Assembly: GCA_937885735.1 (NCBI GenBank)
Contig: CALABN010000121.1
Span: 1-16,532 of the forward strand
Direction of reading: 5' to 3'
Origin: an uncultured Bacteroidota bacterium
Lineage (GTDB): Bacteria; Bacteroidota; Bacteroidia; Bacteroidales; SZUA-534
Length of the DNA: 16,532 bases
Shown here piece by piece: positions 1 to 15,522 of the stretch (its first letter is position 1; each line of letters opens with the position of its first letter). Made by a program: the position numbers and the translations under genes. The notes under the pieces are model-generated. The model was not told where the DNA came from. It saw only the letters and a list, made by a program, of their open reading frames with translations, and ran no database searches.

Positions 1-890
1 TGTGCCAATGCGACCATTGACAGCACATATGTTGTCGAGAGCAAGACTGCCAACATTGGATTCATAGTTATCCCCCAATATTGCAACACAGGATTTTGAA
101 TAGTTATCATGATTGTATGCCCAATATATATCCAAAGTGTATGACGTCCATACTTTGCAAAACATTTAACATAACCGCACCTTGACATTCTGACAACAGA
201 CAAGCACAATGCAAAGCCAAGCAATGTCTGCATAGCGCGGACCAATATGTCGGAAACTATTGCATAGTGCAATTCAGGCATATATATGGGTAGATAAATG
301 GCCGCAAACAATCCAATTACAAAAATTGCAATAAAAGGGAGCTCGGATATAGTTTCCAAACGCGACATAAGCTTATATTCCCTAAAAATGTACCCCAACA
401 AGAAGAATGGCATAAATGCAAACACACGTTGAAATGCAAAAGTCAAATCAATTGGGACAAATCCTGCTAACAATGCCAAGCCAACCGAACCGGCAAACGT
501 CAACCACAAGTTTAGTTTTGAAACCACAAGCCTCAACATTATTCGCCAAATAACAAGACTGAAAACATACCACAATGTAAACCTTGGTGTCAAACAAAGC
601 ATTCTGGTAAGAGTCAATTCATCGCCAATGGCAAATGAAATAAGGTTGAGCACAATTTGCGTAACTACATACACACACAATAACTTGGCCAACATCTTTA
701 TGAATTTGCCCATATCGGCTACTGCCGATGAAAAATATCCCGACAAGAAAACAAATACAGGCATATGAAATGCATATATAAACTTTGTGGCCACAAACTC
801 ATTGTAATCTGGATGCGTAATATGCCCGAAAACCACCAAACATATCATTATGAATTTCAGGCCATCGCAATATAAATCCCTCTCCTTCAT
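1..890 (-). CDS. Acyltransferase 3 family membrane protein, C-terminus cut off by window edge
   Basis: Reading the minus strand from the ATG at 890-888 gives 296 uninterrupted codons that run off the window at position 1. Near the N-terminus is DGLKFIMICLVVFGH (residues 9-23), the typical first-helix signature of the acyltransferase 3 family, with Lys12 and His23 in a K-x10-H arrangement. FVFLSGYFSS and LTPRFTLWYVFS follow, and GRHTLWIYIGH near the cut end matches the family's late helix. The rest is hydrophobic and should form about ten membrane segments. Members usually have 330-350 residues, so perhaps 40 are missing. Such proteins move acetyl or other acyl groups onto extracytoplasmic sugars; this one most resembles the WecH/fucose-4-O-acetylase group. 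The gene starts 5 bases after the upstream acyltransferase gene, so it is the last visible member of the polysaccharide operon. The acyl donor and sugar acceptor cannot be told from sequence. Confidence 0.88.
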   Translation of the reverse strand, partial: MKERDLYCDGLKFIMICLVVFGHITHPDYNEFVATKFIYAFHMPVFVFLSGYFSSAVADMGKFIKMLAKLLCVYVVTQIVLNLISFAIGDELTLTRMLCLTPRFTLWYVFSLVIWRIMLRLVVSKLNLWLTFAGSVGLALLAGFVPIDLTFAFQRVFAFMPFFLLGYIFREYKLMSRLETISELPFIAIFVIGLFAAIYLPIYMPELHYAIVSDILVRAMQTLLGFALCLSVVRMSRCGYVKCFAKYGRHTLWIYIGHTIMITIQNPVLQYWGITMNPMLAVLLSTTYVLSMVALA

Positions 891-895
891 GCTTT

Positions 896-1903
896 TTATA
901 GTTTTGATTTCAGCCTTCCGTATGCAATGCTAACCACAAATGACAATGCTATATACCCCATAAAAACAAGTATGTTGTTGGTTGGCACATCAAACATCCT
1001 GAGCAGATGACGGACAACAACATGAGACAAGTATAGCTCCAATGTCAATGCACTAATTAGCAGATTGGCTTTCTCGAAAATTCCAAACCTGAAACGATCA
1101 ATCAATATCGCAACAATGTACGACAATGAGATAGCCCAAAAGCATGACACAAGCCTTGTAGGGAAAAAATTGATTTCTCTAACCGTTGCAAATACATATG
1201 CCCCTTTCAGTACAATACCCATTCCTACCAAAAGCCAAAGTTTATTGTCATTCAGCCAATTATTTTTAATCGCAGCACCCAAATAAGTTCCTATCACAAA
1301 CGGAAGGCAACGCCATAATGCAAGTTCCGTATTGGCATAATACCATTTGTGTGCACAGCTTAGCCATATTAGCGAAAATGTGAAGATTGCGCAGATGAGC
1401 ATAGCTATCACAAAGCTATGAAATTTAGGCACATTTATCATCCGATACAAAACTGGGAAAACAATGTACATAATAGCGATGAACGACACGAACCATGTTG
1501 TCCGACATCCATCTGTCCAGAATGAAATCATAGTAAAGTCCCATACAAAATCAGTCAATGGCAATCGCAAAATCAATAGGTCTTTTATTATCCAAAACAA
1601 GCCTCCAATAGTCACATATGGCAACAACAGCTTGCAAAACCTCCTTTTGTAAAACGAACGTGTATCGCTGTTTTTAGAATAAGAGTAATACAATCCCATT
1701 CCCGACAGCAGGCAAAAGATATCAACACCTACAGTGCCAATGGTTCCATTGAAAATATCAGCTATCTTTCGCAACATAGAGCCAGAACCAATGCCGACAA
1801 CATCTTCAAAATAATGAGAAAACATAACTAGCACGATTGAAACCGAGAACAGCCAAGAGCGATACCGGCTCAAATAATCCCATTTTAAAATTGTGTTCCT
1901 CAC
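896..1903 (-). CDS. Acyltransferase 3 family membrane protein (polysaccharide O-acyltransferase)
   Basis: This 335-residue protein is mostly hydrophobic, with about ten predicted membrane helices. It has the acyltransferase 3 pattern: LSRYRSWLFSVSIVLVMFSH at residues 11-30, with a conserved arginine (15) and histidine (30), an early LLSGMGLYYSY loop, a TTWFVSFI segment, and LELYLSHVVVRHLL near the C-terminus. The Arg-to-His spacing is 14 residues rather than the 10 seen in OafA-type members, which points to a different subfamily from the neighbouring acyltransferase downstream. It probably O-acetylates the repeat unit or polymer made by this operon, acting in the inner membrane. The stop of the flippase gene lies 6 bases upstream and the next acyltransferase begins 5 bases downstream. 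Family assignment is firm; the substrate is unknown. Confidence 0.88.
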   Translation of the reverse strand: MRNTILKWDYLSRYRSWLFSVSIVLVMFSHYFEDVVGIGSGSMLRKIADIFNGTIGTVGVDIFCLLSGMGLYYSYSKNSDTRSFYKRRFCKLLLPYVTIGGLFWIIKDLLILRLPLTDFVWDFTMISFWTDGCRTTWFVSFIAIMYIVFPVLYRMINVPKFHSFVIAMLICAIFTFSLIWLSCAHKWYYANTELALWRCLPFVIGTYLGAAIKNNWLNDNKLWLLVGMGIVLKGAYVFATVREINFFPTRLVSCFWAISLSYIVAILIDRFRFGIFEKANLLISALTLELYLSHVVVRHLLRMFDVPTNNILVFMGYIALSFVVSIAYGRLKSKL

Positions 1904-1909
1904 TTTAGA

Positions 1910-3403
1910 TTATTTTTTCCGATTAAATATGATACTAGTTATTGTTGTAATCTGCTTACGGTAAAAGACAAAGGCAATTGTCGAATAAACCAACAAAGCA
2001 ATAATTGCGTTTTTCATGGCAAAAATCAACCAATTACCGATGCCAACCTGGCAAGTGGGCAAAAATTGACGCGATACAGCTATTGTAAACAATGCCCCCC
2101 CCCCAAACAAAAGCAAGTTTTTAACAACTGGCTTGTAACTACGGTGCAATACATGTTTTTTCAAATAAACAATCTGCATTAGCGTTCTAAATGACATTCC
2201 CACAATTGTCCCGCAAACCACACCCACAAAGCCATAAGGCTTTACCAGCATAAGCGACACACCAACGTTCAATACCGCTTCAATGTATGCATATTTCTGA
2301 ATGTTTTTGAATCGGTTTGCAGAGTATGCCATATTGACATAAGGCTCTCGCAGGCAGAAAATTCCTTCTGAAGCAATCATAAACCATCCAAGTACAGCCT
2401 GATTATAATCGGCATCGTCAATGCCAGTGGTATAAAGAAGCACAAACGGAGTTATTGTAAGTCCGCCGACAATAAACAAGAAAAATGTGGCAAAGGTTAT
2501 GATGAACTCATACAAACTAAAAGTGTCATCGATTCGCAGTTTGTCTCCCGAAGCAAAGACATTGCCCAATTTTGGGACAATTCCGGCAGAAATTGACTGA
2601 ATCAAACGTTTTAGTCCGGTGGTAACCAAAAAATAAACCGAATAGATCGATATGTTTGAGAGAGTACTAAAAATAGACAACACGACAATGTCGGTATTAT
2701 CGTGAATAAATGCCGCACAGTTTATGCCAAAACCGCTCCAACGCTGTTCCAGCGCCTTAGAGTCTGGCTCAGCCTTGCGGTTGATATGATAGTGCTTGTC
2801 AATGTATCGGTTAAATATGATAGGCTGAAGGACAAACACAAGCGATGAAACAAATTTTACAATATGAATATTTGGCCACAGCTTGATTGTAACAACAGTA
2901 AGCAGTGTGTTAAGAATTATAACAATCATCTGCACTACCGACACAAAACCCACTTTTTGCTCAGCTTTAAGATATGTACGCGCTGTAAGCGCAAAACAGT
3001 ACTGCGCCATCATATATATGCTAAGAATCCATGTAAGCGATGCTATATATGATATAGAGAAACCTGTCTTTACTATTATCGGATACAGCAGCGAGATAAT
3101 GAGTGTGTAGCCAGCAAACAACATTGCCAGACGATTATAAAAACGAGTTGATGCTGATATTATGGCATCAATCTTAGCACGGTTTCCATCATGTATAGGC
3201 TTGTACAATCCTGCCAATACCACAGCATTTAGACCGCCCTCAAACAACATTACATAGTTAAGGAATTGCGTTATTGAATTGACAAGGCCATTCACTTCAG
3301 AGCCAAATGTGCTTAGAATAAGACGTGGAGTTACAAATCCGCAGATAATAGTAACCACCTGCAATAGCACTGAAAGGACCACATTACTATACGTTCTGTT
3401 CAT
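1910..3403 (-). CDS. wzx: Wzx-type oligosaccharide flippase with in-frame G10 tract
   Basis: This 497-residue, very hydrophobic protein (about 12-14 membrane helices) opens with TYSNVVLSVLLQVVTIICGF and TPRLILSTFGSEVNGLVNS. That is the hallmark N-terminus of Bacteroidota polysaccharide flippases of the MOP superfamily. It should move the lipid-linked repeat unit across the inner membrane for polymerisation by the neighbouring Wzy. The ATG at 3403 lies 3 bases after the stop of the polymerase gene. A run of ten C on the plus strand (2095-2104) is ten G in the coding strand, covering codons 434-437 (Gly-Gly-Gly-Ala). In the present length the frame is open. Loss of one G gives a stop five codons past the tract, and gain of one gives a stop about 21 codons past it; both remove the last roughly 60 residues, including membrane helices. 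Function is confident; switching is inferred. Confidence 0.93.
   Translation of the reverse strand: MNRTYSNVVLSVLLQVVTIICGFVTPRLILSTFGSEVNGLVNSITQFLNYVMLFEGGLNAVVLAGLYKPIHDGNRAKIDAIISASTRFYNRLAMLFAGYTLIISLLYPIIVKTGFSISYIASLTWILSIYMMAQYCFALTARTYLKAEQKVGFVSVVQMIVIILNTLLTVVTIKLWPNIHIVKFVSSLVFVLQPIIFNRYIDKHYHINRKAEPDSKALEQRWSGFGINCAAFIHDNTDIVVLSIFSTLSNISIYSVYFLVTTGLKRLIQSISAGIVPKLGNVFASGDKLRIDDTFSLYEFIITFATFFLFIVGGLTITPFVLLYTTGIDDADYNQAVLGWFMIASEGIFCLREPYVNMAYSANRFKNIQKYAYIEAVLNVGVSLMLVKPYGFVGVVCGTIVGMSFRTLMQIVYLKKHVLHRSYKPVVKNLLLFGGGALFTIAVSRQFLPTCQVGIGNWLIFAMKNAIIALLVYSTIAFVFYRKQITTITSIIFNRKK
2095..2104 (-). repeat. Homopolymer G10 tract inside the flippase coding strand
   Basis: Ten consecutive C on the plus strand are read as TTT GGG GGG GGG GCA in the flippase gene. 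The surroundings are AT-rich, so such a run is not expected from local composition. Tracts of this length in other bacteria are hotspots for slipped-strand mispairing. The length here keeps the flippase frame open. Confidence 0.95.
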
Positions 3404-3406
3404 TTT

Positions 3407-4750
3407 TTAATTCTGAATGGCTTTTATTGTGCGATGACCATATATGGCAAACACAACAGAAATAGCGTAGAAACACCAATAATAGCTTTTATAGAAACAA
3501 GGATCAAGGAATCCGACAAAGAAGAAAAAAAGTTGAATTACCACAGCGACAATTGATGCACACAAAGCATCTTCAAGTTCCGGAATACGATTGTTTGTTC
3601 TTCGTAATCGTCTCACACACAACAACAAATTCCTTATTGGAGCAACAATAATCACCATCAACGGAATCAATATAAAAAAGGTTCCCACGACACCAGACTC
3701 ACATAAAAACTGCAAATAGTTATTGTGGACATCCATTACTTTTTCGCCATGAACAACCCTAAATTGTGCAGGAATATAAGTTGCATAACTTTTCCACCCA
3801 ATTCCGAATACTGGATTATCCTTAAATTGATCAATCGCAATAGCATACAATTCTGTTCTGCCCGATGTTATATCCTGACCTGATGTAAGCATCTCAATAG
3901 ACCTTACGTATCGCGACACTGCGTCCCAATGTCTGATTATCGGGAAATAATATGTCACCAATGTATAAAGCAAACAAGCCAGGCCTACTGTTATCGCAAT
4001 AATAATGACTCGTTTGCGACCTGTGTTTACGAGCACCCACAGAAACCACAATGCTATGCAAATAGCGGCAAGTTCGCCACGGCGTTCTATCAAGAATATG
4101 CCGAGCATAAAGTAGCCAAGCAAAAAGAAGTCTTTTATCTTGCTTCCTTTTTTAGATTTATTGAATAGAGATGCACTCACACTAGCTATTCCCATTACTA
4201 TCACATAGTCGTTATATGTGTAACTGGCACCCAAGCAAGGATTGAACCCTCTAGGCAGGAATCTGTCGAAATACATTTGCGACGGCTTTGACAGGATAGG
4301 ATACAACGTGTCAATAAACAAAGTACGACATATCGTAAAGAACAGAATAAACGTAGTAAAAACAAAAGCCACAATACGCATATAGCACAATGCTCTTGAC
4401 ACTACATCGCCACTTGGCGTCGCGACCATAGCTGCAAACGAGAACATCAGCATAGCTAGCAAGCACATTATAGTGTCGATATTTATATTGGCATCTGGTC
4501 TTATATATTGAAGCGCCACAACTACATTAAGCAGCACCAATGCCAAGCCAATATAATTCACCTTTATCCGTGTCTTTTTAAGTACGTTGATACCAACAAT
4601 AAGCAAGACAAAAAGGAAACCAAGTGTCAACGGAATGTCAAAATCCTGATATATGAAATAAGTAGCCGCATAGGTTATCAATATCCACAGAATGCTGTCG
4701 GAAGCGAGCTTCAACTTAAACAAAGACCTATCAATTGAAAAACAGCTCAT
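3407..4750 (-). CDS. wzy: O-antigen polymerase / ligase-like membrane protein (Wzy_C type)
   Basis: This 447-residue protein has about eleven hydrophobic segments and the periplasmic-loop pattern of the Wzy/WaaL family (Wzy_C domain). IERRGELAA (221-229) supplies the conserved arginine region, GRTELYAIAI (297-306) opens the large loop, DNPVFGIGW (311-319) follows, and VHNNYLQFLCESGVVG (341-356) is the classic HN-x-yl-x-x-l-x-e-x-G-x-x-G motif. Between a Wzx flippase and phosphotransferases, the most likely job is polymerisation of the repeat unit on the periplasmic face of the inner membrane. Ligases share the same domain, so ligase activity is the alternative; an operon-embedded copy next to wzx favours polymerase. 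The start at 4750 is 6 bases after the previous stop, and 3 bases separate its own stop from the flippase start. Confidence 0.87.
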   Translation of the reverse strand: MSCFSIDRSLFKLKLASDSILWILITYAATYFIYQDFDIPLTLGFLFVLLIVGINVLKKTRIKVNYIGLALVLLNVVVALQYIRPDANINIDTIMCLLAMLMFSFAAMVATPSGDVVSRALCYMRIVAFVFTTFILFFTICRTLFIDTLYPILSKPSQMYFDRFLPRGFNPCLGASYTYNDYVIVMGIASVSASLFNKSKKGSKIKDFFLLGYFMLGIFLIERRGELAAICIALWFLWVLVNTGRKRVIIIAITVGLACLLYTLVTYYFPIIRHWDAVSRYVRSIEMLTSGQDITSGRTELYAIAIDQFKDNPVFGIGWKSYATYIPAQFRVVHGEKVMDVHNNYLQFLCESGVVGTFFILIPLMVIIVAPIRNLLLCVRRLRRTNNRIPELEDALCASIVAVVIQLFFFFVGFLDPCFYKSYYWCFYAISVVFAIYGHRTIKAIQN

Positions 4751-4756
4751 CGTTTG

Positions 4757-5941
4757 TTACTGCATTTTGGAATCAATGTAGTTGCATATTTGCTCGGCAG
4801 CTGAACCTGTTTCGTAACTCTCAGTTTTCTGCATATAAGCTACCACCTTTGCATTGTATGCGTCCGCATCAAAACTAGATATTGCAGCCAAAAGACTTTC
4901 GTTTGTCTTTGAGTACGAATATGGCCACTCGTCGATAGGCCAATAGAAAGTGCGTTCGTTTATGTACTGATCCACATCGGGAGTGAACAATAATACAGGT
5001 TTCTTCATCAATGAAAAATCCCACATTGATGATGAATAGTCGGTAACAAGCACATCTGCCACAAGCAACAGCTCCTGCATATCGGCATACGAACTAACAT
5101 CTTGCTGATAGTCTTCAATTTTAAATGTAGTTGACAAGCAATCACTTTTCATATAATAATGACCACGCAATAATATTTTCCATTGGCCTCCAAACTTATC
5201 TTTCAAAGTGACGAGCAAATCAGAAAAATTAATAGTACTAGTCGGCACATCACCACTCTTGCGAAATGTTGGTGCATAAAGCAGCACATGCGTATCCTCT
5301 GTTATGTTCAGTTTTTCAAGAATTGATTTTCGCAAGTTCTTGTTCCCGAATTCGTTCACAAGCAAATCATTTCTGGGCATTCCTGTTTTCAAGACAAAGC
5401 CTTTATAGCTGAATGAGCCTTTCAATGTCAACTCTTCAAAAGCCCTGCTACTTGACACAAAAGAAGTTATTTGTGACATTTTTTTTAGCACGTGCTTTTT
5501 CTCCAACACGTTGGTATCTGCTCTATCGGTTCCAACCTGTTTGAAAGTGCCTCCGCCATGCCACGTATTAATCACATGTTGACCCTTTCTAAATCTCAGC
5601 ACCGACCAATGTTCCACATTATCAACATAGAAACGCGATGTAAAAACGTAATAAATGTATTTGACCGATTTATATTTCACAATTTTCACACCTTCATCTT
5701 TCAAGAAATAGAATTTCTCAGGTTCATTAAAAGCCCAAACCACGTCAAATTTGCCAGGATACATTTGCTGTAGCTTACAATATATGTATTTGGGGTTGCA
5801 TGAAAACGAACGCCCACTATATGCTGAAAAAATTATTCTGTTGTCGCAAATTGGAAATAGACAAAACAATTTTAGCACAATAGCTATCACTTCCTCGATT
5901 ATGCATTTTATGCGGTATAGCATTCTATTTGGTTTTAACAC
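4757..5941 (-). CDS. CDP-glycerol:glycerophosphotransferase family protein (TagB/TagF-like)
   Basis: This 394-residue protein carries the whole Glyphos_transf domain. The visible signatures are NTWHGGGTFKQVGTD (125-139), GMPRND (187-192), YAPTFRKSG (222-230), LRGHYY (258-263), and VADVLVTDYSSSMWDFS (294-310) followed by KPVLLFTPD. His128 and His261 fall where the teichoic acid polymerase family has its two conserved histidines. Known members transfer glycerol-phosphate or ribitol-phosphate from CDP-activated donors onto a lipid-linked acceptor on the cytoplasmic membrane surface. In a Gram-negative polysaccharide operon it more likely adds polyol-phosphate to a capsule or O-antigen repeat than builds a wall teichoic acid. 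The ATG at 5941 overlaps the licD-like stop by 17 bases; a second Met at residue 7 (5923) is an alternative start that removes the overlap. A run of eight A lies at codons 152-155. Confidence 0.9.
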   Translation of the reverse strand: MLKPNRMLYRIKCIIEEVIAIVLKLFCLFPICDNRIIFSAYSGRSFSCNPKYIYCKLQQMYPGKFDVVWAFNEPEKFYFLKDEGVKIVKYKSVKYIYYVFTSRFYVDNVEHWSVLRFRKGQHVINTWHGGGTFKQVGTDRADTNVLEKKHVLKKMSQITSFVSSSRAFEELTLKGSFSYKGFVLKTGMPRNDLLVNEFGNKNLRKSILEKLNITEDTHVLLYAPTFRKSGDVPTSTINFSDLLVTLKDKFGGQWKILLRGHYYMKSDCLSTTFKIEDYQQDVSSYADMQELLLVADVLVTDYSSSMWDFSLMKKPVLLFTPDVDQYINERTFYWPIDEWPYSYSKTNESLLAAISSFDADAYNAKVVAYMQKTESYETGSAAEQICNYIDSKMQ

Positions 5942-6788
5942 AATAATAAACGCCCTTGTATTGTGTGTATGGAGTGTTCATGTCAATATAAACGGCATCA
6001 TGTTTGGCGACGCGACTCTCGACAGGAGGCAACTGCATATAGTCGCCCCAAATCAGCCGCAGGTATCGCTCATAACCTTTCATCACTGGAATTTTATGAC
6101 CTTCAAAATCGAGAAAAACCATATTGTCGAAATCTTCTTTCGGATGTCGCAATTTCATTCCCTTAAGACTTCCTATAAGTTCGGTCACTTCATCACACTC
6201 ATCCCACTTATAACGCACCATTCTTTTTTCTGCAAATCGCCATATAGCGTAACGCATTCCTTTTGAAAAAAAGATACAATACAATATCGAAGAAGCGACA
6301 CGTAGCAATTTTCCTTTATTGTCTGGCAAACGTTGTGCGTTAAATAGCGAAAATATCATGGCATTCAACATTTGGAACGCCCCTGCCAATTTCGATTTTG
6401 GGCAACCGTCAATAGGCATAATTTCCAAAGCCAAGCCATGACAAATGTCATCATTTGCGCTATGACGGTTAATAAACGTCGTGTAGTTATCTCTTATAGA
6501 TGCGCCTGCATCATGGTAAACCAAATGCCGGTCGGTACGACAATACGAATAGTGTTTGGTGTCAGCTTTTGCAGTCCACACATCTTTCAATCTTTCGTAA
6601 TCGGGACGCGGCATAAACAAATCAATATCGTCGTCCCACGGAATAAATCCCTTATGGCGAATAGCCCCTATCAATCCGCCTCCGCACAAATAAAACCTTA
6701 GATTATTTTCGTTACATATATTTTTGAAATACAGTAACATTTCCAATTCTTTCTGTTGTATTTGCTTTGTAATATTCTCTTCTATCAT
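5925..6788 (-). CDS. LicD family phosphotransferase
   Basis: With the start at 6788 the protein has 287 residues. The LicD signature is clear: RFYLCGGGLIGAIRHKGFIP (residues 31-50), followed directly by WDDDIDLFMPRPDYERL, whose acidic cluster (52-54 and 56) is the presumed metal-binding nucleotidyltransferase-fold motif. LicD proteins transfer phosphocholine or other phosphodiester groups from CDP-linked donors onto cell-surface glycans. The frame stays open upstream to an ATG at 6869, adding 27 residues. I prefer 6788 because family members normally start about 30 residues before the GGG motif, and the extension resembles no LicD N-terminus. This is the first recognised gene of the operon and overlaps the next by 17 bases. 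Its partner is the TagF-like enzyme next door, supporting a phosphorylated polymer. No CDP-donor synthesis gene is seen here. Confidence 0.9.
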   Translation of the reverse strand: MIEENITKQIQQKELEMLLYFKNICNENNLRFYLCGGGLIGAIRHKGFIPWDDDIDLFMPRPDYERLKDVWTAKADTKHYSYCRTDRHLVYHDAGASIRDNYTTFINRHSANDDICHGLALEIMPIDGCPKSKLAGAFQMLNAMIFSLFNAQRLPDNKGKLLRVASSILYCIFFSKGMRYAIWRFAEKRMVRYKWDECDEVTELIGSLKGMKLRHPKEDFDNMVFLDFEGHKIPVMKGYERYLRLIWGDYMQLPPVESRVAKHDAVYIDMNTPYTQYKGVYYCVKTK

Positions 6789-6869
6789 ATTGAAATACAA
6801 ATAGGATATGTCGCACGCAACAAGCGCACACACATATTGCAATATTACCCTAAAATTCAATTTGTACAA

Positions 6870-7275
6870 AATAATTCTTCATATGTATATTGCAACACTA
6901 CACAGCGACAAAGCAATCGGATTGAGCATGATTTTCCTCAAATTCCATTTAAAACGTCAAACATCTTTTACTATACCATAAATCACCTTTTTGACACAGA
7001 TATTGTTTGAAGTACAATTCACATTGCAGCCCCATCGTGCCAATTACCACTATGATAGAAAAAAAACTGTAATAAAGTCCGTTTTTAATATTTTCAAGTT
7101 GAGATCAAGGAACAACCATTTCACTTCTGCATGTTCAGTGGCAGTAGCCATTTCAGTTTCCCGCTGTTTGCATTTCTGTCGTTCCTGCCATTTGTTGAAA
7201 GAAAAGATAATTCGGAGGGCCAAGTAGAGCCAATATCCGAAGCAAAACAATAAAGTCAACTATGCATAAACGCAA
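6870..7275. other. Gene-poor leader region upstream of the polysaccharide operon
   Basis: No convincing gene is seen in this AT-rich stretch. It should hold the promoter of the minus-strand polysaccharide operon, but no exact TAnnTTTG box was found on that strand; the nearest is TTATTTTG at 6867-6874 on the minus strand, one mismatch from consensus. A 69-codon minus-strand frame with a TTG start (7259 to 7050) reads as one hydrophobic segment (FGYWLYLALRIIFSF) followed by a charged stretch (KWQERQKCKQRETEM). It could be a small membrane protein or chance. No Bacteroides-style UpxY antiterminator gene is present. Confidence 0.4.
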
Positions 7276-7304
7276 TCAGGCCGACAACTTACTTGTCGGC
7301 CTGA
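7276..7304 (-). terminator. Hairpin terminator after the PdxA-like gene
   Basis: A perfect 12-base-pair inverted repeat, TCAGGCCGACAA with its complement TTGTCGGCCTGA, encloses the five-base loop CTTAC. It lies 25 bases beyond the stop of the minus-strand PdxA-like gene. On that strand it is followed by a modestly T-rich stretch (TTGCGTTTATG), without a long T run. On the plus strand a T7 run occurs about 20 bases later, but no plus-strand gene ends here. Position and stem strength make it the likely end of the PdxA-like transcript. Confidence 0.8.
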
Positions 7305-7329
7305 CTGATATTATAGATTCCTTTTTTTA

Positions 7330-8373
7330 CTAATCAGCAATGTTATGCTTCTGCAATGGATTTGATGTCAATTGGCGGTGCAAGGCACGGTTGTCAAGGA
7401 CGTTGCAGGCAAAGCACATTGCGCTTTGGAATGCACTTGGCTGGGCCTGGTCGGTGCCAGCCTGGTCGTAATCTACTTCGCCGACTGGGGCGACACACAA
7501 CTGTGGCATTCCTATCATATAACTTATGCCGTCGTCGTAACTCAAGGCGCGGAACGGCACCATTCCTTGCAAATAATACAAGGCCAGAACTGCATCGAAC
7601 TTCTGGAACAGGCTGGTTCCGAAAAGGACGTCGGCATCGTACGGACCCATTGCCAATATGTCCTCGGCATTTGCCTTCTCTATGGCTGGAATCAACACTT
7701 CACTTTCCTCCCGCTCGAGGTTGACAGCGTTCATACAGTTTGGATTGTAGCCCAAAACAGCGATTTTGGGCTTGTCAATGCCGAAATCGGACTTCAAAGC
7801 GTTGGATACAATGCGCAACTTTGCAACTATGTTATCTACAGTAAGATGCTTCGAGATGTCGCGCATTGGCGAGTTGTCGGACAACAAGGCAACACGCACT
7901 GTACCGTTGACCAGCATTGTCATTGTGTTGGATGCCTCCAATTTCTTTCTGACAAATGAGAACTGGTCGGTGACATTGAGGCTCGCTGTCATCTTTGTGT
8001 TGATTGGATTAAGCACCACGGCTGACAATTTGCCTGATGCCAAATCGGTCACGGCGGACTCAAGCGACGTAACTGACGCTTCGGCTGACATTTGTGTGGC
8101 CTTGCCCAAATCAACTTTGGCGTTGTCGTCGAGCACGTTGAGCAGATTGACCTTGCGGTCTTGCGACTCACCAATGTTCTGAATGGTGTTGAAACTTGAG
8201 TTGTTAATGTTCAACGCCTTGCGGTAGTAAGCCGAAATTTTTGGCGAACCATATATAATAGGTGTGCATTTCTCGGCATACATTGGTTCAAGAAACGCCT
8301 TGAGCATTATCTCGTAACTTGTACTGTTGATGTCGCCTTGTGTGACACCAATCTTTATCTTGTTATGTTCCAT
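7330..8373 (-). CDS. PdxA family protein lacking all catalytic histidines (probable pseudoenzyme)
   Basis: This 347-residue protein aligns from end to end with 4-hydroxythreonine-4-phosphate dehydrogenase (PdxA), especially the Bacteroides form: GVTQGDINSTSYEIMLKAF (9-27), IIYGSPKISAYYRKAL, LNPINTKM (121-128), KSDFGIDKPKIAVLGYNP, EESEVLIPAIEKA, and QGMVPFRALSYDDGISYMIG. Functional PdxA makes 3-amino-1-hydroxyacetone phosphate for vitamin B6 synthesis and needs a divalent metal held by three histidines (166, 211 and 266 in E. coli). Here those positions read Asn167 (SDNSP for TTHLP), Asn212 (NPNCMN for NPHAGE) and Tyr267 (LYYLQG for MYHDQG). The substrate motif GHTE is DQFS (136-139) and the HGTA loop is GEVD (298-301). 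The frame is intact and the scaffold well kept, so it is not a decaying pseudogene. Dehydrogenase activity looks lost; the present role is unknown. It is transcribed alone, divergently from the phosphatase gene. Confidence 0.85.
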   Translation of the reverse strand: MEHNKIKIGVTQGDINSTSYEIMLKAFLEPMYAEKCTPIIYGSPKISAYYRKALNINNSSFNTIQNIGESQDRKVNLLNVLDDNAKVDLGKATQMSAEASVTSLESAVTDLASGKLSAVVLNPINTKMTASLNVTDQFSFVRKKLEASNTMTMLVNGTVRVALLSDNSPMRDISKHLTVDNIVAKLRIVSNALKSDFGIDKPKIAVLGYNPNCMNAVNLEREESEVLIPAIEKANAEDILAMGPYDADVLFGTSLFQKFDAVLALYYLQGMVPFRALSYDDGISYMIGMPQLCVAPVGEVDYDQAGTDQAQPSAFQSAMCFACNVLDNRALHRQLTSNPLQKHNIAD

Positions 8374-8397: not shown

Positions 8398-8405
8398 CAA
8401 ATTTA
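8398..8405 (-). promoter_or_regulatory. Bacteroidota -7 box for the PdxA-like gene
   Basis: On the minus strand this reads TAAATTTG, an exact match to the Bacteroidota -7 consensus TAnnTTTG. It lies 24 bases upstream of the ATG at 8373, leaving a short leader. No clear TTTG -33 element is seen at the expected distance; that place holds the GTTGAAA heptamer repeat. Confidence 0.6.
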
Positions 8406-8685: not shown

Positions 8686-11310
8686 TTGAAAAGATTATTT
8701 CACATAGTGACTTTTGTAATGGCAATGCTGGTTGCAAACTGCTTTTTTGCATCGGCGGAACCATTGTCGGATGATGAACTGTCGGACCTTGAAACCGCAT
8801 TTGCGGAAGCAGACAGGCTTGGCCGAAACAGCCAATACTACGAGGCTGAAAAGGCATATCTCAAAATATTCGACACCTACAACGACGATGTGACGCGCAT
8901 AAAGACCTGCATCAAGTTGTCGGAAATGTACTTTATGACTGGCAACGCCGACAAAACCCTTCAGTACACCAACTTAGCCAACAACATCGACATTATTCGC
9001 GACAGCATAAACTTTTTGTTCAGGATAAACAACCTGACGGCATCGGTTTACCTGTCGCAAAACGATGTAAAAAAATGCCACGCAATTCTTGAGAAGAGCG
9101 CGAGTTACAAGAATTTGGTGACTGACAAGGAATCGCTTGCCAAATTCTACTACATAACAGGCAAATACGCCTTTGCATCGAACGATTTTGCAACGGGCAT
9201 ACGCATTCTGCAAAACGCCACGCAACAATACAGTTCGGACATTATCACACCCGAATACGGACGCGTTCTGCTACTGATTTCACAGATGTACCAAATAAAG
9301 AACGATTTCGTCCTCGCCCTTAAAAACGCAGAAGAGGCTCTGATGATTTTTGACAAGCAGAACTTCGGTGTCAGCAGGATTGACGCATACTGCACAATGG
9401 GCAACATCTACCTTCAAAAGGACGATATGGGCAAGGCCTACGACTGCTACATCAAGGCAAAGCAGATAAGCGACTCGCTCCAGGTAAAGCGTAGCACGGA
9501 AACGGCCAATCTGGCTCTTGCCAACTGGTATCTGAAGAAAAAAGACATTAGCTCGGCTTTGCAATATGCAAGGTTGAACTCGTTTGAGAAGCAGGACAAC
9601 ACCAACCCCGACCTATGGTTCAACGCCGATATGCAGTTTGCCGAATATTACCTGGACAACAACGCACTGGCATCGGCATTGCTATACATAAACAAGGCCG
9701 ACAGCATCTGCAAAAACACAAATTCGTGGTCGAAACTGAGCACGCTGAACAAGATTAAAGGCAATCTGTACCTAAAGAAAAAGGATTACAAGAAGTCGGC
9801 CGAAGCACTACAGAAAGCGCAACTGTACGCCGACAGCCTCGCCTACAACCTGAGCCTCATCGACATTGACTCGCTTGGCATGAACCAGGAACTGAAGCGC
9901 CAAAGCGATATGATATCGATGCTCCAAAGCGAGAACACAAAAAAGGCCACCGACATTGAAAACAACACGTCGATAATCAACCGACAGAAATCGTCAATAT
10001 TCTCGCTCATTGGATTGTTTGTCATCTGTGGCATTCTGATGTTTATGTTGGCTTGGTCGTTCCTGCAAAAGACCAAAGACAACCACGACCTTGAAGAGAC
10101 AAACAAGAAAATGGCCCTTCAAAAGGAACAGATTGAGATTCAAAAGCAGAATCTGCTGACCTACAACCACGAACTGGAAAGGCTGTCGCTGATTGCTCGA
10201 GAGACGGACAACGCCATTCGCATATTTGACAGCGAAGGCAACACCACTTGGGTAAATGTAGGGTACACAAAACTTTACGGGTACTCGCTCAAGGACCTCA
10301 TTTTTGACAACACTCTTGGGTTAAGCAAGGAAAATCCACTTGACATTAAGCACATTATAAAGACCTGGAATCCTGAAAAGAAATCACTCGAGCGCGAATT
10401 CCAGATTGTAAACAAATGGGGCATCAAACTATGGGTTCAAACTACATTGTCGCCAATATTTGACGACGACACGCTGGAAATAAGCCAAATAATAGCCATT
10501 GACACAAACATAACCTCATTGAAGAATGCGCAACAGGACATTCTGAACATGAACGAGGAAATTATGGCCAGTATCACTTATGCCAAACACATACAGGAAT
10601 CGATGCTGTCGCCAATAGAGAACCTGACAAAGCATTTCACCAACAGTTTTGTCTTCTACAAGCCCCGCGCCATTGTAAGTGGCGACTTCTACTGGATTTC
10701 AGAGCAAAGCGGACGAATTATTGTCGCCTGTGCCGATTCTACTGGGCACGGCGTTCCTGGCGCATTCCTGAGCATGCTTGGCATATCGTTCTTAAGCAAG
10801 ATTGTGAACGAGCGTGGCATCATACAACCGTCAATCATTCTCAACAGACTTCGGATGAACGTAATAAGCCACCTACACCAGACCAACAAGGACGTTTCCG
10901 CTGGTGATGGAATGGATATGTCAATAATCTCGATAGACAAAAGAAACGGAATGATGGAATTTGCGGGCGCAATGAATCCCATATATATTGTCCGCAACGG
11001 GCACTTTATTGAGTTGAAGCCCGACCGAATGCCTGTTGGTTACTACGACAACGAGGACCGTTCATTCTCATCGTCGAAAGTGGGAATAAAGCCAAACGAC
11101 CAAATATATATGTTCTCCGACGGATACTACGACCAATTTGGCGGAAAAGACGGACTCAAGATGAAAACAAAGAAATTCAAGGAAATACTGTCGAGATGCG
11201 CACTGAAAAGCAACGAGGAACAGACAAATATCCTTGAAGAAGAATTCCTGTCGTGGAAAGGAACATACGAACAAGTTGACGATATTCTTGTTTTAGGCAT
11301 ACAGATATAA
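8686..11310 (+). CDS. TPR - transmembrane - PAS - SpoIIE-type PP2C serine phosphatase
   Basis: This 874-residue protein begins with a signal-like segment (KRLFHIVTFVMAMLVANCFF). A long helical region with TPR-like repeats follows (about 35-400), e.g. AKFYYITGKYAFASNDFATG, then one membrane helix (438-460), a coiled coil, a PAS domain (about 499-615, with NAIRIFDSEGNTTWVN and YTKLYGYS) and a SpoIIE phosphatase domain (about 635-872). The phosphatase motifs are VSGDFYW (Asp667), ACADSTGHGVPGAF (Asp684), GDGMDMSII, FAGAMNPIYIV, MFSDGYYDQF (Asp812) and VDDILVLGI (Asp865/866), so the metal-binding acids are present. The TPR part should face the periplasm and the PAS and phosphatase parts the cytoplasm, where such enzymes dephosphorylate anti-sigma-factor antagonists. 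TTG at 8686 is chosen because no in-frame ATG lies between it and the upstream TGA at 8659, and it gives a proper lysine-arginine n-region; the first ATG is codon 12. No antagonist or anti-sigma gene is adjacent. Confidence 0.9.
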   Translation: MKRLFHIVTFVMAMLVANCFFASAEPLSDDELSDLETAFAEADRLGRNSQYYEAEKAYLKIFDTYNDDVTRIKTCIKLSEMYFMTGNADKTLQYTNLANNIDIIRDSINFLFRINNLTASVYLSQNDVKKCHAILEKSASYKNLVTDKESLAKFYYITGKYAFASNDFATGIRILQNATQQYSSDIITPEYGRVLLLISQMYQIKNDFVLALKNAEEALMIFDKQNFGVSRIDAYCTMGNIYLQKDDMGKAYDCYIKAKQISDSLQVKRSTETANLALANWYLKKKDISSALQYARLNSFEKQDNTNPDLWFNADMQFAEYYLDNNALASALLYINKADSICKNTNSWSKLSTLNKIKGNLYLKKKDYKKSAEALQKAQLYADSLAYNLSLIDIDSLGMNQELKRQSDMISMLQSENTKKATDIENNTSIINRQKSSIFSLIGLFVICGILMFMLAWSFLQKTKDNHDLEETNKKMALQKEQIEIQKQNLLTYNHELERLSLIARETDNAIRIFDSEGNTTWVNVGYTKLYGYSLKDLIFDNTLGLSKENPLDIKHIIKTWNPEKKSLEREFQIVNKWGIKLWVQTTLSPIFDDDTLEISQIIAIDTNITSLKNAQQDILNMNEEIMASITYAKHIQESMLSPIENLTKHFTNSFVFYKPRAIVSGDFYWISEQSGRIIVACADSTGHGVPGAFLSMLGISFLSKIVNERGIIQPSIILNRLRMNVISHLHQTNKDVSAGDGMDMSIISIDKRNGMMEFAGAMNPIYIVRNGHFIELKPDRMPVGYYDNEDRSFSSSKVGIKPNDQIYMFSDGYYDQFGGKDGLKMKTKKFKEILSRCALKSNEEQTNILEEEFLSWKGTYEQVDDILVLGIQI

Positions 11311-12714: not shown

Positions 12715-15522
12715 ATGCCGGCACAAACAATGACAAAGACACTGACAAAACTGATGACATTCCTTTCGGCAACGCTCATTTGCTTACTGGCGAATGTTAC
12801 CGGCTATTGCCAATTCTACGACACTGGTCAAGACCGGTTCAGGGCCTTGTCGATGATAAAGACCGAACATTTCAATGTCATTTTCCCTGAAAGTGAAATG
12901 GCTATAGGTCAACTATATGCCAACAGCCTTGAACAAGCATTCCAACATGGCGGGCAAAGCCTGAAATGGACTCCCCGACGTATATCGGCAGTGCTATTCA
13001 CTTCGTCGGCGACAGCAAACGGCGAAGTGGCGTGGGCTCCGCGCCGGATGAATCTTCTTACGACAGCGTCGCCCGACAACTATCAGCAAAACTGGAACGA
13101 ACAGTTGGCACTACACGAATTCAGGCACGTGGTGCAAAGCGACAAGCTGAACCAATGCACCACCCGTTTTTTCAACATTCTTCTCGGCGAGCAATTTACA
13201 GGCCTCGTTCTCGGTCTGCATATCCCCTACTGGTTTCTTGAAGGCGATGCCGTTGCTTACGAGACTGGCGCATCGGATGCTGGTCGCGGAAGGACTGGCG
13301 ACTTCGAGAACCTGCTGTCGGCACAGGTGGCGCAAAAAGGCATCTACAGTTACCCAAAGGCAATGTTCGGCTCGTATCGTGACTTTGTTCCGTCGAGATA
13401 TCATCTTGGATATCAACTGATAAGTTACGGGCGTATGAATTACGGTCCTGAAATTTGGGACAACAGCATTAACCGCGTGGCCAAATATCCGATAGCGATA
13501 AGACCTTTCGGACGCGGAATAAAGATGACCACGGGCCTGAAGGAAGCAAGTTTCTACAGGAAGGCGTTGGCATCGCTCATTGACAATGAGAAAGATGCAA
13601 AGCCTGGCAATGCGACGCTTATTACTCGGGCCAACCCGAAAGACTACACAAACTACTATGTTCCGCAAAGGCTGAACGGCAAGATTGTGACCTACCGCGA
13701 GCAATATTCCGACATTCCTGCCTTTGTTGCCACCGACACCGCCAGCAAACGACAGAAAAGGCTTGTCAGACCTGGGCAAATGAGCGTCAATCATTTTTCG
13801 GCAGAAGGCGACCTGCTTGTATGGAACCAAAGAAGATGGGACTACGCAAACTACAGCCAAATAATGACTTACAATGTTGCCACAAGGAAGAAACACACGC
13901 TGGCAAAACGCGGAAGATATTACGCATCGACATTGTCGCACGATGCAAAGTCGATAGCATCAGCCTGCTACACCGACTCGGCACATTGGTCGATAACCAT
14001 ACACGACACAAATGGCAAACTGCTGAAACAAATACCAACTGGCGACACCATTCCTGCAAGGCTCGCCTGGTCTGACGACGACGGCAGTCTGTATTTCATA
14101 GGGAACGCGGGCAACTTCAAGTCGATTATCTGCATCAACCTAACCGACAGCAAGATGACAAGCATTGCGGACAGCATCGACAACAACATCTCGAATTTGA
14201 CAACAGACAACGGATTCATATATTTCACAGGCACTTATGGCGACTATAATGCCTGGTTCCGAATGAGTTCCGAAAGCGATTCGGCTGAAGTGGTTGCGAC
14301 AAGCAAATTCGGCATCGGGACTGGTAGCGTGACGGGCGACAGCATTCTGTTTACATACTACACCGCCGACGGATACCAGATTGCCGAAAGCCGTATGGTC
14401 CACTCAACAAAAGCGCCAATGCCAACCGCAAAGGAAACCGCATTCACAAAAGCGCTGTCGGCTCAAGAAGAAAATGTGACTTTCAATGCCGACTCAACCT
14501 ACAAGGTTGAACACTACAGCCGTCTGGCCCACTTGCTAAACATTCACAGTTGGGGCCCGCTGTCGATTGACGTGGACAATGCTGAAATTGGGCCTGGACT
14601 GACTTTTATGTCACAAGACGCGCTATCGACATCATTCCTCACGGCTGGCTATCAATATAAATATGCCGAAAGCAAGGATAACTATTTTGCTGAATATGAA
14701 TACAAAGGGTTCTTCCCCATTTTCGGTGTGCGAGGCGACATTGACCGCTACAACGAGTATTATATTGACAAAAATAACGACATATATAAATTCAAAATGA
14801 CTGACAAGCAGGTTTCAGCATACGCGCAACTGCCTATGTATCTGAAAACTGACGCTTTCAACACCGCGCTGACCCTGCAAACCGCTTATTTTTTCAAGCA
14901 GACAAGTTGGAAATACGGACGTTTTACGCAAGACACGTCTAGAAGCGCAATGTCGTACACGGCTTACGCCTACACGCATCGCCGAATGGCTTACCGCGAC
15001 CTTCAGCCTCGACTTGGCATTTCGGCAAGGGTTGATTTCGCACATCACTTAAGCGATGCGCAATGCAACCAGACCGCCATTCAAGGCAATGTGTATCTGC
15101 CCGGAATACTGAAAAATCACGGGATACAAGTCAGTTGCGGACTTCAGGTCAGGAACGGCGACGGACTGCTGATAAGTTCCATTGTGCCATTTCCTCGCGG
15201 TTGCAAGTATGCAAAGCACAAGCAATTGACAAGTTTGCAGACGTCATACGCATTGCCACTTCTCTACCCCGACCTGAATATGGGCATTCTGTACATCAAG
15301 AGAATAAAGGCAAAGGCCTTCTTCGACTACGCACAGATTCAATATAATGGCAATAACAGCACAATACAATCGGCGGGTTGCGACCTTTCTGCCGATTTCC
15401 ACATTTTCAGATTTCCCGTGCCTATAAGTGCTGGCGTGCGCTATGCCCGACGCCTGTCGTCGGACGAGAACTATTTCGGACTGCTTTTTACGGCTAACTT
15501 CAGTAGTTTGATGAACTTTTAG
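12715..15522 (+). CDS. Exported HExxH metallopeptidase-like protein with beta-propeller and C-terminal barrel
   Basis: The 935-residue protein starts with a signal peptide (hydrophobic stretch about 14-28, ending near VTGYCQ). Residues about 45-285 form a gluzincin-like domain: LALHEFRHVVQ gives the HExxH zinc motif (His134, Glu135, His138), and PYWFLEGDAVAYE gives the likely third ligand Glu176 and the usual W-x-x-EG-x-A pattern. Residues about 300-605 carry TolB-like propeller blades, e.g. LAWSDDDGSLYFIG. The last 300 residues alternate hydrophobic and polar positions and finish with LLFTANFSSLMNF, ending in Phe as outer-membrane barrels do. I infer a surface-anchored or periplasm-facing protein whose peptidase and propeller are tethered to an outer-membrane barrel. 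The substrate is unknown. ATG at 12715 is chosen; Met6 (12730) is an equally possible start. It follows the punA terminator, so it should have its own promoter, which I could not locate. Confidence 0.83.
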   Translation: MPAQTMTKTLTKLMTFLSATLICLLANVTGYCQFYDTGQDRFRALSMIKTEHFNVIFPESEMAIGQLYANSLEQAFQHGGQSLKWTPRRISAVLFTSSATANGEVAWAPRRMNLLTTASPDNYQQNWNEQLALHEFRHVVQSDKLNQCTTRFFNILLGEQFTGLVLGLHIPYWFLEGDAVAYETGASDAGRGRTGDFENLLSAQVAQKGIYSYPKAMFGSYRDFVPSRYHLGYQLISYGRMNYGPEIWDNSINRVAKYPIAIRPFGRGIKMTTGLKEASFYRKALASLIDNEKDAKPGNATLITRANPKDYTNYYVPQRLNGKIVTYREQYSDIPAFVATDTASKRQKRLVRPGQMSVNHFSAEGDLLVWNQRRWDYANYSQIMTYNVATRKKHTLAKRGRYYASTLSHDAKSIASACYTDSAHWSITIHDTNGKLLKQIPTGDTIPARLAWSDDDGSLYFIGNAGNFKSIICINLTDSKMTSIADSIDNNISNLTTDNGFIYFTGTYGDYNAWFRMSSESDSAEVVATSKFGIGTGSVTGDSILFTYYTADGYQIAESRMVHSTKAPMPTAKETAFTKALSAQEENVTFNADSTYKVEHYSRLAHLLNIHSWGPLSIDVDNAEIGPGLTFMSQDALSTSFLTAGYQYKYAESKDNYFAEYEYKGFFPIFGVRGDIDRYNEYYIDKNNDIYKFKMTDKQVSAYAQLPMYLKTDAFNTALTLQTAYFFKQTSWKYGRFTQDTSRSAMSYTAYAYTHRRMAYRDLQPRLGISARVDFAHHLSDAQCNQTAIQGNVYLPGILKNHGIQVSCGLQVRNGDGLLISSIVPFPRGCKYAKHKQLTSLQTSYALPLLYPDLNMGILYIKRIKAKAFFDYAQIQYNGNNSTIQSAGCDLSADFHIFRFPVPISAGVRYARRLSSDENYFGLLFTANFSSLMNF

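Follow-up and report, generated by a model that had tools for sequence, protein, structure and literature searches.

A predicted PdxA pseudoenzyme of Bacteroidales and its possible retention for a function outside vitamin B6 synthesis

What keeps a gene for a vitamin B6 enzyme in a genome once its active site has been replaced? This question is raised by a 16,532-nt stretch of DNA from an uncultured Bacteroidota bacterium (contig CALABN010000121.1; hereafter the window, meaning the whole stretch), which encodes on its minus strand a homologue of PdxA, the 4-hydroxythreonine-4-phosphate dehydrogenase of the 1-deoxy-D-xylulose 5-phosphate (DXP)-dependent B6 route. An initial annotation made from the letters alone had proposed a pseudoenzyme whose fold, rather than its dehydrogenase activity, is under selection. 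We are inclined to accept that the gene is a dead PdxA orthologue retained for an ancestral, B6-independent scaffold function.

Fold and active site of the window protein

The open reading frame begins with ATG, contains no internal stops and encodes 347 amino acids. Its product matches the Pfam PdxA family (PF04166) over residues 34–321 with 235.5 bits (cut-off 27), the 15 solved sequences that it matched are all named PdxA or PdxA-like dehydrogenases, and a structure model predicts that the two-domain PdxA fold is kept. The claim of a full-length PdxA scaffold was thus borne out. The protein falls below the cut-offs of the enzyme profiles: it scored 197.5 bits with the PdxA equivalog TIGR00557 (cut-off 290.35), with which the canonical relatives P0035 and L024 reach 336 and 349 bits, and 78 bits with the PdxA2 profile NF002891 (cut-off 583).

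Residues were assigned by comparison with the E. coli enzyme (PdxA of the K-12 locus), and we scored 12 catalytic positions which, with their roles, we take to be those of the E. coli structure. None of the 12 is kept (H136 to Q137, T137 to F138, H166 to N167, H211 to N212, H266 to Y267, D267 to L268, K274 to R275, N283 to S284, R292 to C293, and H297-G298-T299 to G298-E299-V300). The initial annotation had read the three metal histidines as Asn, Asn and Tyr, the GHTE motif as DQFS, the HGTA motif as GEVD and the residue after the third ligand as Leu, and the mapping agrees on every point. That the protein is still a 4-hydroxythreonine-4-phosphate dehydrogenase working with alternative residues is scarcely conceivable; the fold and the Pfam match would allow it, but the empty set of catalytic residues and the low TIGR00557 score speak against it, and its relatives (see below) have no PdxJ to use the product.

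The replacements are not peculiar to the window. In a protein search in which 8000 candidates were scored and the best 120 taken, every one of the 27 best homologues (54–97% identity) has lost its metal histidines (all three), both His and Thr of the GHT motif, R292 and HGT; D267 survives in one and K274 in one. With the window protein they form a clade (n = 28; Shimodaira–Hasegawa-like approximate likelihood ratio test, SH-aLRT, 100). Sister to it (SH-aLRT 98) are the next three homologues, P0028–P0030, which retain the metal histidines and GHT and have an altered HGT loop, a combination that suggests stepwise loss with the cofactor loop first. In this superfamily of folds, HGTA presumably forms the NAD-adenine loop. 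The canonical set (n = 88) excludes P0028–P0030 as well as P0085 and P0093, partly or wholly degenerate PdxA homologues from the same search that lie outside the window's clade. Because the losses are common to relatives on the family tree, the reading that the initial annotation had named as its refutation, a lone decaying copy, does not apply; a lone pseudogene is likewise ruled out by the losses shared with 27 homologues and by a low ratio of nonsynonymous to synonymous substitution rates (dN/dS). Two longer homologues, P0031 (549 aa) and P0056 (467 aa), have two PdxA matches each and are tandem PdxA genes or assembly artefacts; since the extra part is a second PdxA match and not a new domain, we dropped the idea of a fusion partner.

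Loss at the active site was selective. In the window's group (13 rows), none of the 12 catalytic columns is kept against 79 of the 103 other columns invariant in canonical PdxA (Fisher p = 2e-7), which indicates targeted loss and not general decay. In eight pairs of already degenerate genes, dN/dS was 0.04–0.15. The catalytic residues are thus lost throughout the clade while the relatives' PdxA is full length and its fold is under purifying selection, and the shared losses, the low dN/dS and the predicted fold support the proposal of a pseudoenzyme for 4-hydroxythreonine-4-phosphate dehydrogenation.

Has the old cleft been rebuilt for something else? Under this alternative, a cleft formed by Q137, F138, Y267, R275 and C293 would catalyse or bind something new in the window's clade. 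Q137, Y267 and C293 occur in 28 of 28 members, R275 in 27, F138 in 26, S284 in 24 and Q298 in 23, tighter than free drift suggests. Against this, other old ligand sites vary freely (A, S, N, K, M, V or P at 167; N, D, G or R at 212; eight different residues at 268), and other degenerate groups mostly have different residues, so that one new chemistry cannot account for all of them. We consider such neofunctionalisation unlikely. The idea of a pocket turned hydrophobic was set aside, the gain in hydropathy being only weakly greater at replaced catalytic positions (2.7) than at other replaced polar positions (1.8; p = 0.033).

Vitamin B6 genes and repeated loss of the active site

The genomic setting of the window's species was inferred from a family of 20 draft genomes, reached via the relative L001 (a Salinivirgaceae metagenome-assembled genome from yak omasum). 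Exactly one PF04166 gene is present in 17 of them and none in three. Five of the 17 score as canonical and 12 as low; of these 12, 11 belong to the window's clade and the other, G020, represents a separate loss. Neither PdxJ nor the PdxH C-terminal domain, by which alone PdxH was sought, was found in any of the 20 genomes; control searches with that domain gave matches in E. coli, Caulobacter and Bacteroides. PdxS is encoded in eight: all five canonical genomes, two degenerate ones (G008 and G020) and G005. In 10 of the 12 degenerate genomes, all drafts, neither de novo B6 route was found.

These searches bear on a suggestion of the initial annotation, which had called for a hunt for a second PdxA and PdxJ: that the protein might regulate a true PdxA by forming mixed dimers. 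The PdxA active site lies at the dimer interface, and a precedent for dead subunits with a regulatory role is IDH3, a protein of related fold that was among the structure matches (we take the regulatory role of its beta and gamma subunits as given). Since none of the 17 positive relatives has a second PF04166 gene and PdxJ is missing from all 20, mixed-dimer regulation is very improbable in the window's species, in so far as these relatives represent it.

A paralogous or horizontally gained copy is also ruled out for the clade, which nests within canonical Salinivirgaceae PdxA with P0028–P0030 as its sister and in which G008 retains the linkage to an aminopeptidase gene. By these sequence comparisons, the window gene is an orthologue of PdxA that a Salinivirgaceae-type bacterium inherited vertically.

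Across the order we sampled 393 genomes, of which 343 had PdxJ over the cut-off and 50 did not (49 without a match and G343 with a weak one); some of the negative calls must be gaps in draft assemblies. PdxA was missing from 12 of the 343 PdxJ-positive and two of the 50 PdxJ-negative genomes (p = 0.70). Weak PdxA genes, defined by a best E-value worse than 1e-90, occurred in 23 of 48 PdxJ-negative carriers and five of 331 PdxJ-positive ones. Three of those five (G150, G199 and G379) are fragments and two (G319 and G382) are true; with fragments removed the comparison is 23/48 versus 2/328 (p = 2e-21, kinship ignored). In G319 and G382, PdxA lacks the metal histidines and a second PF04166 gene was not found, leaving PdxJ either orphaned or supplied by another enzyme. 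Outside the family there are 20 weak genes that are not fragments, each with an open frame of between 286 and 400 aa; the one in G362 is below the Pfam cut-off, and PdxS is present in 13 of these 20 genomes. Five degenerate proteins (G307, G224, G125, G381 and G238) retain the three histidines and have altered GHT and R292. Two genomes of about 1.0–1.2 Mb, G110 and G362, hold full-frame, extremely divergent PdxA genes (L089:6511-7491 and L090:6175-7035; best Pfam E-values 4e-11 and 1e-4) and encode PdxS too. Among strong PdxA proteins from PdxJ-positive genomes, all 13 inspected, drawn from the top-scoring range, had 12/12 residues. Among the better-scoring proteins of PdxJ-negative genomes (13 of 25 inspected), five were intact and eight had one to three changes. 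In an evenly drawn sample of 198 genomes from the phylum, PdxJ and PdxA were each found in 194, with G572 lacking both, and PdxJ losses were too few to judge whether the pattern holds beyond the order.

Loss of the active site in a gene that was itself kept arose several times in the order. On a 79-row tree, the fewest changes were seven for the degenerate state and six for the absence of metal histidines, rough counts given that long branches meet on this tree; a single origin was rejected (approximately unbiased test, p-AU 0.0002), the tested group having been defined after the tree was seen. When the degenerate proteins were divided by hand into 13 groups, a catalytic column (n = 12) was kept on average in 3.2 groups and any other column invariant in canonical PdxA (n = 103) in 9.2 (p = 3e-7); with the window's group excluded the values were 3.2 and 8.4. 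Retention was highest around residues 9–25 and 185–211 (Table 1) and only average at residues 30–59.

Might these genes be relics, their job gone with the DXP-dependent pathway and the genes simply not yet deleted? The partly changed active sites in eight of the 13 inspected PdxJ-negative genomes do resemble intermediates of decay. We nevertheless find slow decay quite improbable: dN/dS is low between degenerate genes, the frame is open in all 20 genes fetched from outside the family, PdxA is no more often absent where PdxJ is missing, the PdxH C-terminal domain has gone from the very family that keeps PdxA, and even genomes of about 1 Mb retain the frame.

A second function for PdxA

An older non-catalytic function would explain together the single copy, the orthology, the low dN/dS, the equal retention with and without PdxJ and the repeated, targeted loss. 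PdxA probably does a second job in these bacteria. We envisage that the PdxA of the Bacteroidales ancestor already had such a B6-independent job, in which the folded protein, probably as the PdxA dimer, would act as a scaffold to which a ligand or partner protein binds, with contacts through parts outside the old active site, such as the two best-kept stretches. While the DXP-dependent route existed, both jobs would have been under selection; once it was lost or replaced by PdxST, the scaffold job alone would have been, and the HGT cofactor loop would have changed first and the metal site next. The general form of this proposal, that Bacteroidales PdxA is a two-job protein combining oxidation of 4-hydroxythreonine-4-phosphate with an important non-catalytic function independent of B6, seems to us an evenly balanced proposition.

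Several observations weigh against retention for an ancestral scaffold function. A neighbour common to all degenerate groups was not found in 38 stretches, and the M17 aminopeptidase gene that recurs in 10 of them is not beside the window gene. The 13 groups of the column comparison, defined by hand, lack independence, and columns that differ from E. coli are kept no better than the others (9.1 versus 9.3 of 13 groups; p = 0.53). The latter result also disposed of a Bacteroidota-specific surface, E. coli being the sole outside sequence. The window's own dN/dS pair is saturated, and some neighbour genes are more tightly constrained. G319 and G382 have PdxJ together with degenerate PdxA, and the eight partly changed sites in PdxJ-negative genomes could fit slow decay too. 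Finally, four Salinivirgaceae (L024–L027; G004, G003, G007 and G009) retain 12/12 residues without PdxJ or the PdxH C-terminal domain, their intact PdxA being accompanied by PdxS; the fifth canonical genome, G002, has three catalytic changes. With these four, some PdxA chemistry outside B6 synthesis is conceivable, and a catalytic use of this kind may exist in some Salinivirgaceae.

Gene neighbourhood and relation to known systems

Neighbours were assigned by Pfam in L024, L034 and L040 and by BLAST grouping in the remaining loci. A gene for an M17 aminopeptidase lies just upstream of pdxA in all five canonical family loci, preceded in four of them by M23 peptidase, dxr and rseP genes. The pair is retained in the degenerate G008 and G020, and outside the family G381, G238 and G239 have the aminopeptidase upstream of pdxA. 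It directly precedes degenerate pdxA in five genomes (L078, L079, L082, L034 and L040). Setting aside the phosphatase of the window's clade, it is the most recurrent neighbour in the 38 stretches, and this linkage makes it a possible partner candidate.

In the window, the divergent neighbour of pdxA encodes a TPR-PAS-SpoIIE phosphatase, which raises the alternative of a ligand sensor: the protein would bind a B6 vitamer, a nucleotide or a phosphorylated hydroxy acid without turnover and signal to a partner, perhaps this phosphatase. The modelled two-domain fold is compatible with binding, and the phosphatase gene is beside pdxA in the window and seven relatives and nearby in L032 and L034. However, the stretches fetched for L035 and L036, and those of the other degenerate groups, do not contain it; in L034 it adjoins the M17-pdxA pair, so the linkage may simply reflect an inherited gene order; and the substrate residues K274, N283, R292, H136 and T137 are all replaced. 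A sensor role is, in our judgement, decidedly improbable.

The promoter box and terminator that had been proposed for the gene fared unequally. The box, TAAATTTG, lies 32 bases before the ATG, has a counterpart at −28 to −34 in six of seven relatives examined and is of the Bacteroidota −7 type (consensus TAnnTTTG). The terminator stood only in part: there is a hairpin, and a scan 3' of the gene found no T-run terminator. Elsewhere in the window, positions 3–6869 (minus strand) hold a surface polysaccharide cluster with two acyltransferases, a Wzy_C O-antigen ligase, a CDP-glycerol glycerophosphotransferase and a LicD family protein, a gene set that in our opinion is unusual for Bacteroidales. 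Positions 12715–15522 (plus strand) encode a protein of 935 aa for which Pfam gave no match at E 0.001; L038 has a relative in the matching place.

Table 1. Positions of the pdxA homologue, its replaced and best-kept residues, and adjoining features in the window
Feature	Position	Strand	Remarks
PdxA-fold protein, predicted catalytically dead PdxA orthologue	7330..8373	-	347 aa; profile and structure model
Residues 9-25 (G-x3-GDxN-x3-YE-x3-K), best-kept stretch	8299..8349	-	Invariant columns 1-29 kept in a mean of 11.2 of 13 groups
DQFS (136-139) in place of GHTE substrate motif	7957..7968	-	Q137 in 28/28 of clade
Asn167 in place of metal ligand His166 (E. coli numbering)	7873..7875	-	
Residues 185-211 (K185, D196-F197, P202, I204-A205, N210-P211), best-kept stretch	7741..7821	-	Invariant columns 180-209 kept in a mean of 11.2 of 13 groups
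Asn212 in place of metal ligand His211	7738..7740	-	
Tyr267 in place of metal ligand His266	7573..7575	-	Tyr in 28/28 of clade
Cys293 in place of substrate Arg292	7495..7497	-	Cys in 28/28 of clade
GEVD (298-301) in place of HGTA loop	7471..7482	-	Loop already altered in sister group P0028-P0030
Bacteroidota-type -7 promoter box TAAATTTG	8398..8405	-	Also in 6/7 relatives examined
Hairpin 3' of the gene, no T-run	7273..7307	-	15-bp stem, strong
Divergent TPR-PAS-SpoIIE (PP2C-type) phosphatase	8686..11310	+	Linked in most, not all, clade members

Neither pseudoenzymes as such nor PdxA homologues acting on other substrates are new. A PdxA pseudoenzyme lineage and the retention of PdxA without its pathway appear new in the literature searched: we found no report of an active-site-free PdxA or of PdxA retained without PdxJ, weak evidence of novelty given that the search included few subscription papers. 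Gut vitamin pathway reconstructions count PdxA with PdxJ for the DXP-dependent route (PMC6593275), and pdxA has been tried as an antibacterial target (PMC12841171). For Porphyromonas gingivalis, pdxA is given as an essential gene (PMC3547785); since pdxJ appears in a proteome table for that species too (PMC12119571), this essentiality does not discriminate between the readings. A survey of pyridoxal phosphate genes uses PdxJ as a signature, and its main text nowhere contains "bacteroid" (PMC9997740). If a second function is real, a Bacteroidales pdxA gene alone does not imply B6 synthesis, pdxA mutant phenotypes may not concern B6, and the order supplies natural separation-of-function proteins, dead as enzymes with the second job kept, for finding that job.

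Among known systems, PdxA itself (TIGR00557; PDB 1ps6, 1yxo, 6xmy) shares with the window protein its fold, length, orthologous descent and most non-catalytic core residues; it differs in that the window protein has all metal ligands, GHT, K274, N283, R292 and HGT replaced and its relatives lack both PdxJ, the partner in the pathway, and the C-terminal domain of PdxH. PdxA2, D-threonate-4-phosphate dehydrogenase (NF002891; PDB 6e85), is likewise a PdxA homologue of the same superfamily fold outside B6 synthesis, but it is an active enzyme, and the window protein scores far below its profile cut-off. TphB, terephthalate dihydrodiol dehydrogenase/decarboxylase (PDB 8zhy, 4aty), puts the PdxA fold to use on a changed substrate; unlike the window protein, which has no metal ligands, it binds metal, as judged from a solved entry titled magnesium-substituted. 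The regulatory pseudo-subunits IDH3 beta and gamma pair with an active paralogue, which the window's relatives do not have, and resemble the window protein in their related fold and in being dead homologues kept by selection.
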